This document shows, piece by piece, positions 58,463 to 63,103 of a stretch of 64,000 nucleotides of DNA. The position numbers and the translations under genes are program-made. Origin of the DNA: Portibacter lacus. GTDB taxonomy: Bacteria; Bacteroidota; Bacteroidia; Chitinophagales; Saprospiraceae. The notes below the pieces were generated by a model. The model worked only from the letters and a program-made list of their open reading frames with translations. It was not told the origin of the DNA and did not search any database. The stretch covers positions 1 through 64,000 of the forward strand of contig NZ_JAJNKA010000018.1 of NCBI RefSeq assembly GCF_021533215.1, in the 5' to 3' direction. Numbering within the stretch: the stretch's first letter is position 1; each line of letters starts with the position of its first letter.

Positions 58463-60244
58463 GTGCCGATTGTGAGCTCTATAAGACTTATATCATTTTT
58501 TGTGTTCTTGGTTTTGTCCAATCTTGCTATTGGTCAAAAGTCGAGTTACTATGCCTTTCCGAAAACGGATGACCCTGATTTAGCCAAGAGGTGGAAGGAT
58601 AAAAAAATGGATAGTACAGCGCTAATATTAGACCTAAAGAAAGTGGTCAGTGAGTTACAAGCTGCTGCCTTTCTGGAGGCATCGATAGACAGTCTTCAAT
58701 TTCGAGATTCTACAGCAACCTTCCGAATTCACCGTGGCGAAGTGTATAAATTTGCCCAACTCAATCTCAATCCACTTTATAATGAAATCCTTGCGAAGGC
58801 TGGATACCAGATTAAAACCATAGAAGGCAAACAAATGGACGTGGAATTCTTAGGTGAAATGTTTGATGAGGTGATTACCGTTCTAGAAAACAATGGTTAT
58901 CCTTTTGCTGCTATTTCACTAAAAAACTATTCCACAGATGAGAACAAGTTCAATGCCGATCTTCATATCGATAGAGGACGTCTCGTAACAATGGACACCT
59001 TTAATTTATATGGTCTAGACCTAATTAGCAAGAGTTATTTATACAATTATCTTCAGATAAAACCTGGTGACATCTATAATGCAGCTGAAATTTTAAAAAT
59101 TAAAACGAGGCTGAATAATCTACCTTTTTTGAATCTAACTGAAGATCCAACGATCAAGTTTATCGATAATTCCGCTATACTTAATCTCAAACTTGAATCG
59201 ACAAATTCCTCTCGTTTTGATTTCATCATCGGTATTCAACCTGGGAGCACTACCGATGGACCGCGCTACAGTATTACGGGAGATGTCAATTTTGAAATCC
59301 AGAATAAACTGAAGCAAGGAGAGCAATTCAAAATTAATTTTGAGCGATTAAAGCAAGAAACACAGAAGCTCGAAGTCAATTTCCAATATCCTTATTTATT
59401 GAGTTTTCCATTTGGATTTGATACCGAATTTAACCTCTTCAAAAACGAAAATAAGAATAGGGATTTGAATTTTAGTTTCGGTGTGCTTTATCAACTAAAG
59501 GCAAATAATTTCTTAAAAGCTTTTTATAATATTCAAAGTTCAAGACTGATCGAGATAGATACAACCTCTATATTAAGCACTGGTAAACTTCCTAGTCGAC
59601 TAGATGTGTCTACGAACAATTTCGGTTTACAGAGTAACTGGCAAGATTTAGATTATCAATTTAACCCGAGAAAAGGATATAAAATTATTCTACGAGGAAG
59701 TGCTGGACAAAAAACCATTATCCCATCAAATGCCATTCTAGGCTTAGAAAAAGAAGGCGTGGATTTTTCTAGTGCTTATGATACCATTGATTTAGAAACT
59801 TATCAATTCAAGCTTAATTTAACTTCTTCTTTCTTTCTACCAATTGGAAAAAGATCAACATTGAAAGTGGGCGTTACTTCTGAAAAAATCTTTGCTAAAA
59901 GCCAAGTTTTCGAAAATGAGTACTACCGTTTTGGAGGTAACAAGTTACTAAGAGGTTTCGATGAAGAAACTATCTCTGGGGAATTCTATGGCGTAGGAAC
60001 ACTCGAATTTAGATTATTGATCAGCAAAAACTCCTTTATCTCAACTTTTGTAGACTATGGATTTCGGCAAAATAAATATGATGTAGATTTCGAATGGGAT
60101 CAGCCTTATGGTGCAGGGGCAGGATTTAGTCTTGAAACAGGTGCCGGAATTTTCGGGGTAAATGTTGCTGTAGGCTCACAAAAAGGAAATCCGTTAGATT
60201 TACGTAATGTTAAGACACATATGGGATTTTTAGGCTTATTTTAG
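58463..60244 (+). CDS. BamA/TamA-like outer membrane protein (POTRA plus barrel)
   Basis: About 593 residues with a likely GTG start at 58463 (or 58472); no ATG precedes the mature region, and the frame upstream runs inside hemW on the other strand. A signal peptide (SSIRLISFFVFLVLSNLAIGQ) is followed by POTRA-like repeats (about 60-270; INTMDTFNLYGL-type and LYNYLQIKPGDIYNAAEILKIKTRLNNLPFL) and a C-terminal Omp85 barrel (LRGFDEETISGEFYGVGTLEFRLL). It probably inserts or secretes proteins across the outer membrane. Shorter than typical BamA, so a TamA/ShlB-type relative is likelier. Confidence 0.82.
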   Translation: MPIVSSIRLISFFVFLVLSNLAIGQKSSYYAFPKTDDPDLAKRWKDKKMDSTALILDLKKVVSELQAAAFLEASIDSLQFRDSTATFRIHRGEVYKFAQLNLNPLYNEILAKAGYQIKTIEGKQMDVEFLGEMFDEVITVLENNGYPFAAISLKNYSTDENKFNADLHIDRGRLVTMDTFNLYGLDLISKSYLYNYLQIKPGDIYNAAEILKIKTRLNNLPFLNLTEDPTIKFIDNSAILNLKLESTNSSRFDFIIGIQPGSTTDGPRYSITGDVNFEIQNKLKQGEQFKINFERLKQETQKLEVNFQYPYLLSFPFGFDTEFNLFKNENKNRDLNFSFGVLYQLKANNFLKAFYNIQSSRLIEIDTTSILSTGKLPSRLDVSTNNFGLQSNWQDLDYQFNPRKGYKIILRGSAGQKTIIPSNAILGLEKEGVDFSSAYDTIDLETYQFKLNLTSSFFLPIGKRSTLKVGVTSEKIFAKSQVFENEYYRFGGNKLLRGFDEETISGEFYGVGTLEFRLLISKNSFISTFVDYGFRQNKYDVDFEWDQPYGAGAGFSLETGAGIFGVNVAVGSQKGNPLDLRNVKTHMGFLGLF

Positions 60245-60356
60245 TGGGGTGAAACTTAATTTGAATTCGCTGCAAATATAGATTCCACCTATCTCTACGC
60301 GCATAAAGCATTAGAAATCAAACTAAAAATAGGTAATGTCACTGGAAATTTACAAA

Positions 60357-60554
60357 TGGGAAATAAATTTACCGTACCATTAAGGTTTGTTGCATTGCGT
60401 GGAGAAAGTTTCATTTTTTCAGTGGTTCTGGGAATTTATTTCCAGAGCGTGAATATTATGAAACGGCAAATAAATTTACCGTACTATTAAGGTTAGATAC
60501 AGGTGCAGAAAAAATGATATATTTACTTAATGGTTCTGGGAATTTATTTCCAGA
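60357..60554. repeat. Left REP cluster: four palindromes (A-B-A-B)
   Basis: Palindrome A (type CGGCAAATAAATTTACCG) occurs at 60357-60374 and 60464-60481; palindrome B (type TCTGGGAATTTATTTCCAGA) at 60427-60446 and 60535-60554. A to B gaps are 52-53 bases and the B to A gap is 17. The cores AAATAAATTT and AAATTTATTT are each other's reverse complement. The cluster lies between the barrel gene end (60244) and the transposase end (60601). Confidence 0.9.
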
Positions 60555-60600
60555 GAGACCCTAAGCATCCGACACCTATTTCCAGTCGATACAACCACAA

Positions 60601-61284
60601 TTATATTCCTGAGTTTGTTGCAAGGTAATTCCATCTGTATTCTTGCCAATTTGCAATAAGACCTGCTTTGACCGGATTATTTAGAATATAAGTTATAATG
60701 TTCCCTAGCATGCGTTCATTTCTAATATAAGTGTCATAGCTTTCTCGTTCCCAAAATTGACCAGACCGATTCAATTCTCTATTGCAATACTGTGCAGTAG
60801 CACCTTTTATGCGCTTCAGTATTCTGTCAAGAGTTTGAAACTCATTTGTAATTCTTTCTTCATCAAATTCTAGCATTTCAAATTGAACAGACGTGTCAAT
60901 TAAAAGATGAACATGGTTGTTCATTATTGTGAAAGCCAAAAGTTTGTAAAACTCATTATCAAATCTATGAAATTGTTCCTCACAAATTTGGGCACAATTT
61001 TCATTTGAAAAAAATGTTGGTCCATGTCTAATTGAATGTAGTAAGTTGTCAATTTCAAGTAGATGTTTTCTATGTATCTCGAATTTGGAATAATTTAAGA
61101 TTTCACTCTGGTATTTATTTTGAACATCTAGTAGACGATCTTGATAATTTCTTTTGCATCTAGCCAATTCTATGGCAGGAATGCTACCATGTAGTCTAAA
61201 AGTGACAAAGAAAGTATCACCGAGGTATTGAATGTGTGGAAATTTCTGTCGATAGTATTGCTTTGAATTGGATTTATTGGCCAT
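60601..61284 (-). CDS. REP-associated tyrosine transposase (RAYT, Y1/IS200-like)
   Basis: A 227-residue Y1 transposase from ATG 61284; the open frame extends further to 61434 but that part translates the flanking repeat, so the shorter start is right. Seen motifs: DTFFVTFRLHGSIP near 23-36, the HUH pair in MNNH124VH126LLID, the likely catalytic Tyr183 in RESYDTYIRNE, and LNNPVKAGLI (about 201-210), all typical of RAYTs. These are single-copy domesticated transposases that act on REP palindromes. Here the gene is flanked on both sides by matching palindromes. Confidence 0.93.
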   Translation of the reverse strand: MANKSNSKQYYRQKFPHIQYLGDTFFVTFRLHGSIPAIELARCKRNYQDRLLDVQNKYQSEILNYSKFEIHRKHLLEIDNLLHSIRHGPTFFSNENCAQICEEQFHRFDNEFYKLLAFTIMNNHVHLLIDTSVQFEMLEFDEERITNEFQTLDRILKRIKGATAQYCNRELNRSGQFWERESYDTYIRNERMLGNIITYILNNPVKAGLIANWQEYRWNYLATNSGI

Positions 61285-61376
61285 GAGTTTGCATTTAGAA
61301 ATATTAGTGTAGAAATACCAATTTTTGTTACAAAAAATTGGAAATTTTATGAACAGAGACAGAACATATTTGAAAA

Positions 61377-61502
61377 CGGCAAATAAATTTACCGTACCAT
61401 TAAGGTTGGTTGCATTGGATAGAGAATGTTTCATTTTTTCAGTGGTTCTGGAAATTTATTTTCAGAGCGTGGACATTGTGAAAACGGTAAATAAATTTAC
61501 CG
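61377..61502. repeat. Right REP cluster: three palindromes (A-B-A)
   Basis: Palindrome A at 61377-61394 and 61485-61502 (the latter, CGGTAAATAAATTTACCG, is perfect) and palindrome B at 61447-61466 (TCTGGAAATTTATTTTCAGA). The spacing (52, then 18 bases) and the sequence between A and B match the left cluster closely and in the same orientation. The cluster ends 15 bases from the stop of the gene at 61517. Confidence 0.9.
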
Positions 61503-61516
61503 CACCATTAAGGATC

Positions 61517-63103
61517 TTATGCTTTCAACTTTTCCATAAACCAAACCATTCCGAATCCGAAAACCATCAATAAGATCGAAATCCACCATGGTATTTTCTG
61601 CTCTTCGAAAAACGGTTCCATTTTTACATCATCTATATTTTGTTTCAAGTATCTAACATAATGCTCTACCTGATTCGCTCGCATCGTCTCCCAACTTCCC
61701 TTCCCGAAAACATAAAACCATTGTATTTCATCCGTTCCGAGTCTCGTTACTTTATTCCAGCCTCTTCGACCTGTAAGTTTAGCTTCTCCATCTCCATCGA
61801 GAAATGGTGTATAATTCACTATTAGTGGAAGACTATCATTAAGGAAAAGTTGATCCTCTTGATTAGCATATCCAATCTGAGCAGAAGTCGATTCCGCTTC
61901 ATAAGTTAGAAAGGGTTTTGATACCGTGAACCCTTCGTTCTTTTTCACAAATAAGTCAGACAATATGCTTGCCCACATTTGATTGTACACGCTAGCTTTA
62001 TCATGTAGGATAAGTTGATACGAATCACTGACCTTTAATAAGAATACACTACCATAACCATGATGCCATTTTAAGCCATAATCCATCACCTTCCATGAAT
62101 TATTATGCTCCACATCGATCATCTCAAGATTAACACTTTCTATTTCTTCATCTGAAAATCGCAAGACCTTATGATATGGTAATCCTTTCGCGGAAACGCC
62201 TGCTTGCGTAGGTTTCAAGGCTAATCCTAAGCCATTTTCTTTCACCGCATTTAATACTAGATTTCTTTCATTAGGAGTAATCGTATTCCAAGTCGCTATA
62301 TCCAAAAGTAAAATATCGAAGCGGTCCAGCACCTTTGTTGAAAGTGTTGCAAATTTAAATTCTGGAATATTAACATAATTGGTGCTAAATTTCTCCTGGG
62401 AAATCTTCACCTTTTGTAAAATCGAATGACCTTGTGACACCCAATAATTCTTCAGATAATTAATATCGAATTGAGGGTTATTAGCCAGAATCAGCATACT
62501 CATTTTGCTAGATGGCTTTACCTGAATAGGTAATACCTCACTCATGGTATCTCCAGATGCCACCATTGCTTTCAACGAATATTCGTACAATCCTTTAACT
62601 GGTGCTTTCAACTCGACACTAAAGTTATTTCCATTCAAAGTAGCTTGGGATTCCTCACCACTAGTGTTTTCTACCCAAATCTCCGCTAAACTGTCCTCCT
62701 CAGATTCGAATTTTCCCACTACGGTAAAATATTCACCTTCAACAATTTCAGATTTGCTCACATCTGAAAATCCATCAGGTACTGAAAAATTGACCAGCTC
62801 AATATGATAATTTTCTAAAAGCTGAATATCTTCTATCCGATGATTGCCTCCAATTAACTTAACCGTATCCGTCCAATGCATCTTTTCAGAACTTAAAAAT
62901 TCCTGAATATTATCAACCATGGAACTTTCTAGTGGTTTTTCTTTAAGATGAAATGGTTGCGCAATGGCTAGCCATAACCCAGTAAATCCAATTAATAAAA
63001 AAGCTATCTTTTTGAGATCTCGAGACCAGTATGCACTCAAGATAAAGACGACTGCCACAAAGACCGTTGCTAATAGCACCTCATATGACCAATCTATCGT
63101 CAT
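61517..63103 (-). CDS. Membrane protein with periplasmic domain, possible aerotolerance-cluster gene
   Basis: A 528-residue protein with two N-terminal helices (about 8-25 and 31-47), a large periplasmic part, and a C-terminal helix (about 505-522). The periplasmic part has an Ig-like region (about 110-200; FTVVGKFESEEDSLAEIWVEN, GLYEYSLKAM) and a class-I-amidotransferase-like stretch (about 205-320; MSMLILANNPQFDINYLKNYW, RFDILLLDIATWNTITPNERNLVLNAV) without a clear catalytic Cys. Similar proteins accompany MoxR/VWA (Bat) genes in Bacteroidota; those would lie outside the window. The upstream gene overlaps its start by four bases. Confidence 0.68.
   Translation of the reverse strand: MTIDWSYEVLLATVFVAVVFILSAYWSRDLKKIAFLLIGFTGLWLAIAQPFHLKEKPLESSMVDNIQEFLSSEKMHWTDTVKLIGGNHRIEDIQLLENYHIELVNFSVPDGFSDVSKSEIVEGEYFTVVGKFESEEDSLAEIWVENTSGEESQATLNGNNFSVELKAPVKGLYEYSLKAMVASGDTMSEVLPIQVKPSSKMSMLILANNPQFDINYLKNYWVSQGHSILQKVKISQEKFSTNYVNIPEFKFATLSTKVLDRFDILLLDIATWNTITPNERNLVLNAVKENGLGLALKPTQAGVSAKGLPYHKVLRFSDEEIESVNLEMIDVEHNNSWKVMDYGLKWHHGYGSVFLLKVSDSYQLILHDKASVYNQMWASILSDLFVKKNEGFTVSKPFLTYEAESTSAQIGYANQEDQLFLNDSLPLIVNYTPFLDGDGEAKLTGRRGWNKVTRLGTDEIQWFYVFGKGSWETMRANQVEHYVRYLKQNIDDVKMEPFFEEQKIPWWISILLMVFGFGMVWFMEKLKA

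Follow-up and report, generated by a model that had tools for sequence, protein, structure and literature searches.

A probable REPtron-like unit in Portibacter lacus: a RAYT gene within a short array of its own REP hairpins, in a clade with changed hairpin feet

Analysis of a 64,000-nt stretch of Portibacter lacus DNA (contig NZ_JAJNKA010000018.1, positions 1 to 64,000; hereafter the window) revealed a locus that is best explained, with a probability of roughly 0.85, as a REPtron-like unit, in which a RAYT, an HUH, one-tyrosine endonuclease of single-stranded DNA, is embedded in a short BIME-like array formed by its own REPs (Table 1). The gene, the match of its modelled fold, the array, a strand preference in most copies, the near-absence of the hairpins elsewhere in the genome and a clade-wide change of the hairpin feet (the tetranucleotides beside the stems) were all obtained by computation. 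A first-pass annotation had described the locus as a Bacteroidota version of the RAYT/REP system with its own REP; the REP is indeed its own, but RAYTs with REPs have already been described in Bacteroidetes (PMC6006769; published work is cited here from excerpts), and what is new is the foot change across the clade.

Table 1 Features of the RAYT locus in the window (positions counted from the first base of the window).
Feature	Position	Strand	Remarks
Palindrome A1	60357..60374	minus	degenerate; foot ATGG on minus strand
Palindrome A2	60464..60481	minus	foot ATAG
Palindrome A3	61377..61394	minus	foot ATGG; closest REP upstream of RAYT gene
Palindrome A4	61485..61502	minus	perfect stem; foot ATGG
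Palindrome B1	60427..60446	plus	foot GTGG
Palindrome B2	60535..60554	plus	foot ATGG; closest REP downstream of RAYT gene; inverted relative to A3
Palindrome B3	61447..61466	plus	foot GTGG
Direct repeat, left copy (A1-B1 unit; family D2)	60348..60463		116 nt
Direct repeat, right copy (A3-B3 unit)	61368..61483		116 nt; 88% identical to left copy
Putative RAYT-bearing stretch occupying the position of a 17-18 nt B-to-A linker	60555..61364		right end approximate; reading of sequence
RAYT / TnpA-REP gene, 227 aa	60601..61284	minus	HUH motif NHVH (residues 123-126); Y199 as catalytic Tyr, within YILNNP

The sequence, read directly, gave the plus-strand order A1 B1 A2 B2, gene, A3 B3 A4, with gaps of 52–53 nt from A to B and of 17–18 nt from B to A, and an A-B period of 107–108 nt. 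The alternation of A and B appears to continue through the RAYT gene, as if the gene had replaced one of the short B-to-A linkers. A search for the A motif with its tail at up to three mismatches revealed seven matches in the window against 0.16 expected, a number attained in none of 100 shuffles. B proves to be the A motif read on the opposite strand, B2 carrying the tail ACCATTAAG and B1 and B3 a form of it with three mismatches; A and B are therefore not two unrelated palindromes but one motif in opposite orientations, so that the array is BIME/REPIN-like, exhibiting the inverted REP pairs and the regular spacing by which such elements are recognized. The feet at the seven palindromes are ATGG (four copies), GTGG (two) and ATAG (one), and the bases preceding A2 resemble those preceding A3 (family D1). 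The flanking genes converge, the plus-strand gene ending at 60244 and the minus-strand gene at 61517.

These data confirm what the first-pass annotation had observed, namely seven palindromes with this spacing, reverse-complementary cores of A and B, a single Y1 transposase among them (one intact HUH/Y1 protein), a two-type hairpin module of its own on both sides of the RAYT, and a position between converging gene ends; its interpretation as a whole is partly supported. The claim that both flanks run in the same direction holds for the module order, which repeats directly as the 116-nt repeat, but not for the REPs nearest the gene, A3 with its minus-strand foot and B2 with its plus-strand foot, which are in inverted orientation. 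Tandem REP-bearing units were also seen at two other loci of the same genome, with periods of 107 nt on C40 (L196) and 128 nt on C38 (L197), the former being equal to the A-B period in the window.

The protein matched Pfam Y1_Tnp at 27.8 bits (cut-off 23) and NCBIfam REP_Tyr_transpos at 71.9 bits (E 4.9e-20), under the curated cut-off of 80 for the latter; the RAYT profile nevertheless fits better than that of IS200 (transpos_IS200, 19.6 bits). An AlphaFold2 model built from 35 sequences reached a mean pLDDT of 89.6, and its top PDB match in Foldseek was 4er8, a RAYT bound to a REP hairpin (E 6.9e-6). VIA-align likewise placed 4er8 first (Z 14.6, 142 residues aligned, rmsd 3.1) and IS608 next (Z 11.6), and also listed Thg1 and AAV Rep at Z 5–9, which we read as probably reflecting a shared arrangement. 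N-H-x-H and Y199 are invariant in 35/35 aligned sequences. The gene is thus intact, with an HUH motif, a single catalytic Tyr and an IS200-like fold, and nearer to RAYT than to IS200/IS605. In the alignment to 4er8, W178, E179, D184, T185 and R188 correspond to W94, Q95, E100, H101 and R104 of the E. coli RAYT. As for the TnpA-REP subclass 2.4, the motifs NH[IFV]H and YIxNNP are present (NHVH, YILNNP). The WQ motif is absent, with W178-E179 here and E, D or G at the second position in 11/11 members of the clade described below, and the foot GT[AG]G is found in only 2/7 copies (GTGG) and, as GTRG, in three feet at 79 hairpins of the clade; membership of subclass 2.4 is therefore not claimed.

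The HUH/Y1 fold is common to IS200/IS608 and hairpins stand at both ends, as they would in an autonomous IS200-like insertion sequence that transposes as a whole unit with the hairpins as its ends. Insertion sequences of the IS200/IS605 type are expected to occur in several near-identical whole copies, however, and no second near-identical copy was found in the genome, in which the best paralogue is 40% identical. In both profile and fold the protein matches RAYT better than IS200, and each side carries three to four alternating hairpins and not one per end. An insertion sequence of this kind is thus quite unlikely here.

The distribution of the palindromes was analysed over the 6.31 Mb (43 contigs) of the genome, with a combined A/B core pattern built from the copies of the locus themselves. 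All exact cores (6/6) were located at this locus, as were 7/12 of the cores with at most one mismatch. The genome-wide copies of the A-B module that the first-pass annotation had suggested counting thus amount to no dispersed REP family, with its many intergenic copies throughout the genome, and none of the palindromes lies inside the RAYT gene. Among the five one-mismatch cores elsewhere, that at C40:330515 has an AATGG foot and could therefore be a distant stray copy. A two-mismatch match to the tail was found on C22 (L006), a region that also contains, at 1–500, long tandem repeats of ~235 nt unrelated to the palindromes. The core with its tail, at up to two mismatches, had no match in the two congeners; in P. 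marinus the core pattern alone, lacking the tail, was matched exactly at two places. Absence of the palindromes elsewhere and loss of the HUH/Tyr motif in relatives had been named in advance as grounds for rejecting the RAYT/REP interpretation; the palindromes are in fact nearly private, but the motif is kept in all 35 aligned sequences.

The comparison with an empty site in a relative, also proposed at the outset, yielded no clean one in P. marinus or in the congener G001. In P. marinus the two neighbours remain convergent at a distance of 2.4 kb, and the part of the gap that was read (1.5 kb) contains other sequence; in G001 the two neighbours are located on different contigs.

In contrast to the A/B palindromes, a CTCGG...CCGAG family in the same genome is dispersed, with 53 sites at up to one mismatch (control 0), at least three of which adjoin a paralogous RAYT on C13 and one of which adjoins that on C39. 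One type of RAYT in this genome is therefore accompanied by a dispersed family and another is not. Some 300–600 nt downstream of the C13 RAYT lies a second, non-palindromic repeat (TAGGTCATACAAGGTTTCGAA...) in two copies (L055). A further paralogue (L057, C11:71565-72176) is broken by two stop codons and is still flanked by its own repeated palindromes, which have five further sites elsewhere at up to one mismatch.

Calculation of the folding energy of both strands revealed that the foot strand folds better in 5/7 copies, all five with imperfect stems (for example −4.5 vs −3.2 kcal/mol), because G-T stands on it where the other strand has A-C. The perfect stem of A4 folds nearly equally on both strands (−5.5 and −5.6 kcal/mol), and the degenerate A1 shows the reversed preference, with 0 kcal/mol on the foot strand and −1.5 on the other; 6/7 copies thus still fold. 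In the dispersed family, GGA was found directly 5' on the wobble strand in 36/37 single-wobble copies and on the opposite strand in none, these 37 being the single-wobble copies within 20 stretches around some of the 53 sites. The feet in the 36 copies are GGAG, GGAC or GGAA; together with the ATGG, GTGG and ATAG feet of the locus itself, they answer the question that the first-pass annotation had raised about GTAG/GGAG-like tetranucleotides at the stem bases.

The hairpins lie between converging gene ends, and the distance from the end of A4 to a stop codon is 14 nt, so they might be only RNA or chromosome features of a convergent gene pair, such as terminators or mRNA stabilisers, to which the transposase is incidentally close. 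Rfam gave no match with an E of 1 or lower, no terminator-like site was found at any palindrome, and the promoter and terminator scan was near the shuffles (10 vs 6.9 and 1 vs 0.7). The copies flank the transposase on both sides and occur almost nowhere else, and repeated hairpin families stand on both sides of the gene in many other RAYT loci (below), which makes a purely incidental neighbourhood very improbable. A comparison with PHROGs gave no match.

A REPtron-like unit may also be dead, that is, its enzyme may once have moved the REPs and the whole may now be decaying. Such a relic would fit the divergence of the copies (88% identity between the flanks, a degenerate A1), the almost complete lack of copies elsewhere in the genome and the two stops in the C11 paralogue. 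The intact gene, which keeps all residues invariant among the 35 aligned sequences, and the six copies that still fold argue against it, and we regard decay as possible, if on the unlikely side.

For comparison, we collected at least 124 distinct RAYTs scoring no less than 140 bits, that of the window among them. They came from whole-genome searches and from a named genome scan, in which 80 of 359 confirmed matches were retained; 43 weaker homologues (60–140 bits) were kept out of the main counts and viewed apart. Feet were detected mechanically at stems that lie within 700 nt, measure at least 6 bp and contain no more than one mismatch, a procedure that misses weak stems (it found six hairpins at the window locus) and that scans both strands, so that each hairpin has two chances. 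Among the loci listed, 50/79 had a repeated hairpin family in their flanks and 44/79 had one on both sides, in counts based on a clustering that misses diverged copies (5/7 clustered at the window locus). The stems vary between loci, and several have a AAATTTATTT-like centre like that of the window locus.

Numbered as in the E. coli enzyme, residue 101 is H at 75 other loci, where GTAN accounted for 302 feet at 599 hairpins (mirrored control 85), GTRG for 107 (control 49) and [AT][AT]GG for 77 (control 49), the last somewhat over its control. The 32 loci with R101 had 70 GTAN feet at 229 hairpins and 46 [AT][AT]GG feet, again somewhat over the control (30). R101 is also present in the distant RAYTs L125 (Verrucomicrobiaceae) and L146 (Lentisphaerae), whose hairpins form regular arrays with TGGGAG or TGGAC feet, and in L068, which has GG feet too; two Cloacimonadota genes with S101 (L119, L130) have GTA feet. 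Two other RAYT loci are dense in hairpins. At L065 (G003:C69) the RAYT is accompanied by dense tandem REP arrays that look CRISPR-like at first glance, with seven 31-nt and four 32-nt units upstream and ~55-nt units downstream, and 11 of the 34 sites of its core in that genome are at the RAYT; at L247 (G543:C68) a dense run of TTGCAAATTGAATTTGCAAG-type hairpins surrounds the RAYT over hundreds of bases.

A tree of 120 RAYT proteins (a quick search with the trait columns kept; 4/124 omitted as short or gapped) placed the window RAYT in an 11-member group with an SH-aLRT of 91, which contains the genes on C9, C13 and C39 of its own genome, two P. marinus genes and six others. In this clade [AT][AT]GG accounted for 46 feet at 79 hairpins, in 11/11 loci and mostly 1–2 nt off the stem (mirrored control 5), and GTAN for five at the same hairpins; the clade thus mostly bears a recognition tag different from the usual GTAN. 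When the 11 proteins were compared with 60 GTA-foot relatives, no position being picked in advance, 2/214 columns shared no residue, namely 185 (I or T in the clade vs mainly H and R) and 192 (M vs mainly E), and column 179 ranked sixth. By the 4er8 alignment, column 185 corresponds to H101 in the guide pocket and column 179 to Q95, both of which are treated as guide-contacting residues in PMC6006769. As a control, each of 27 overlapping tree groups of 7–16 members was compared with the rest of the tree, and only this clade had unshared columns (two). A sister pair joins the clade at a support of only 75, L227 with E95, H101 and GTA feet and L245 with E95, S101 and AGGTAC feet, and the two look like intermediate states in the change of foot and pocket.

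We suggest, at about even odds, that this Saprospiria clade has switched its DNA guide, having lost the starting G-T and reading (A/T)(A/T)GG 1–2 nt off the stem, alongside pocket changes of H101 to I/T, position 108 to M and Q95 to E/D/G. The pocket change may have caused the foot change. The latter provides only two independent pairs, below the number needed for a test, and is essentially one evolutionary event; the relationship is therefore a correlation that descent alone could explain. I or T at 101 is not needed for GG, since L068, L125 and L146 have R101 and GG feet. Residue 101 as a general code is ruled out by these three R101 loci together with the S101 loci L119 and L130 and their GTA feet. 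Residue 95 was likewise compared with the fourth base of the foot; G4 was found in 19/34 loci with Q and in 5/30 without, but over seven phylogenetically independent pairs the median p was 0.69, and the apparent link was dropped. The excerpts searched, including those of PMC6006769, PMC3733652, PMC2817692, PMC8266576 and PMC3686654, do not mention feet of the type ATGG or TTGG, which does not prove their absence from print.

A working mechanism for the REPtron-like unit can be proposed. REPs of type A are expected to fold on the minus strand and those of type B on the plus strand, each short hairpin being tagged 1–2 nt to its 5' side by the tetranucleotide (A/G)T(G/A)G. The RAYT would bind the hairpins in single-stranded DNA, read the tetranucleotide as a guide, and then cut and rejoin the strand. 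The 107–108 nt A-B units beside the gene may be a product of this activity or of recombination that later took place between the direct repeats; in the first case the array would have grown through the enzyme. The repeats have hardly spread through the genome. TnpA-REP is reported to cut and rejoin single-stranded REPs, with guide-to-target pairing setting the cut; one group-3 enzyme, given a CT substrate, selected strongly for no more than the final two bases of the guide, and with a GTGG guide it cut at CC (PMC8266576). That the clade keeps the final G-G and loses the initial G-T would fit flexible guide reading under this scheme (PMC8266576), if it applies to the present enzyme, in which case the predicted cut would shift from between C and T towards between C and C for a guide ending in GG.

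The question of how a RAYT and its REPs continue to match each other as both evolve is still open. The genome contains a dispersed and a private REP family with related yet different feet, and the clade provides specific residues and bases for swaps in a cleavage assay. If the guide switch is true, it would document in nature how a single-strand transposase altered its target code in concert with its repeats. With REPs so little dispersed, the locus is also a system for studying a RAYT that retains its REPs without populating the genome with them.

Comparison with known systems showed the closest likeness in several different respects. TnpA-REP subclass 2.4, or RAYT group 4, shares the occurrence in Bacteroidetes, NH[IFV]H with YIxNNP, and a REP-flanked gene, but the window locus has WE instead of WQ, feet that are mostly not GT[AG]G, and no such palindrome in the gene (PMC6006769). 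The E. coli REPtron (4er8) resembles the locus in its HUH/Y1 fold, in a tetranucleotide 5' of the hairpin and in having REPs of more than one type, arranged as inverted pairs; its REPs are dispersed, whereas those here are local, and its Q95 and H101 are replaced by E179 and T185. The E. coli enzyme accepts GTAG only in its unaltered form (PMC8266576). REPs of Pseudomonas, with GTGGGAG feet, likewise have a tetranucleotide ending in GG, but their feet start with G and most of those in this clade with A or T (PMC3686654). Inverted orientation of the flanking REPs is found in published RAYTs as well (PMC2817692). Finally, locally concentrated REPs of marine gammaproteobacteria, including those of Marinomonas REPtrons, are also gathered beside their own RAYT gene, in regions that span at most ~200 kb, in contrast to 1.15 kb in P. 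lacus (PMC2817692, PMC8266576).
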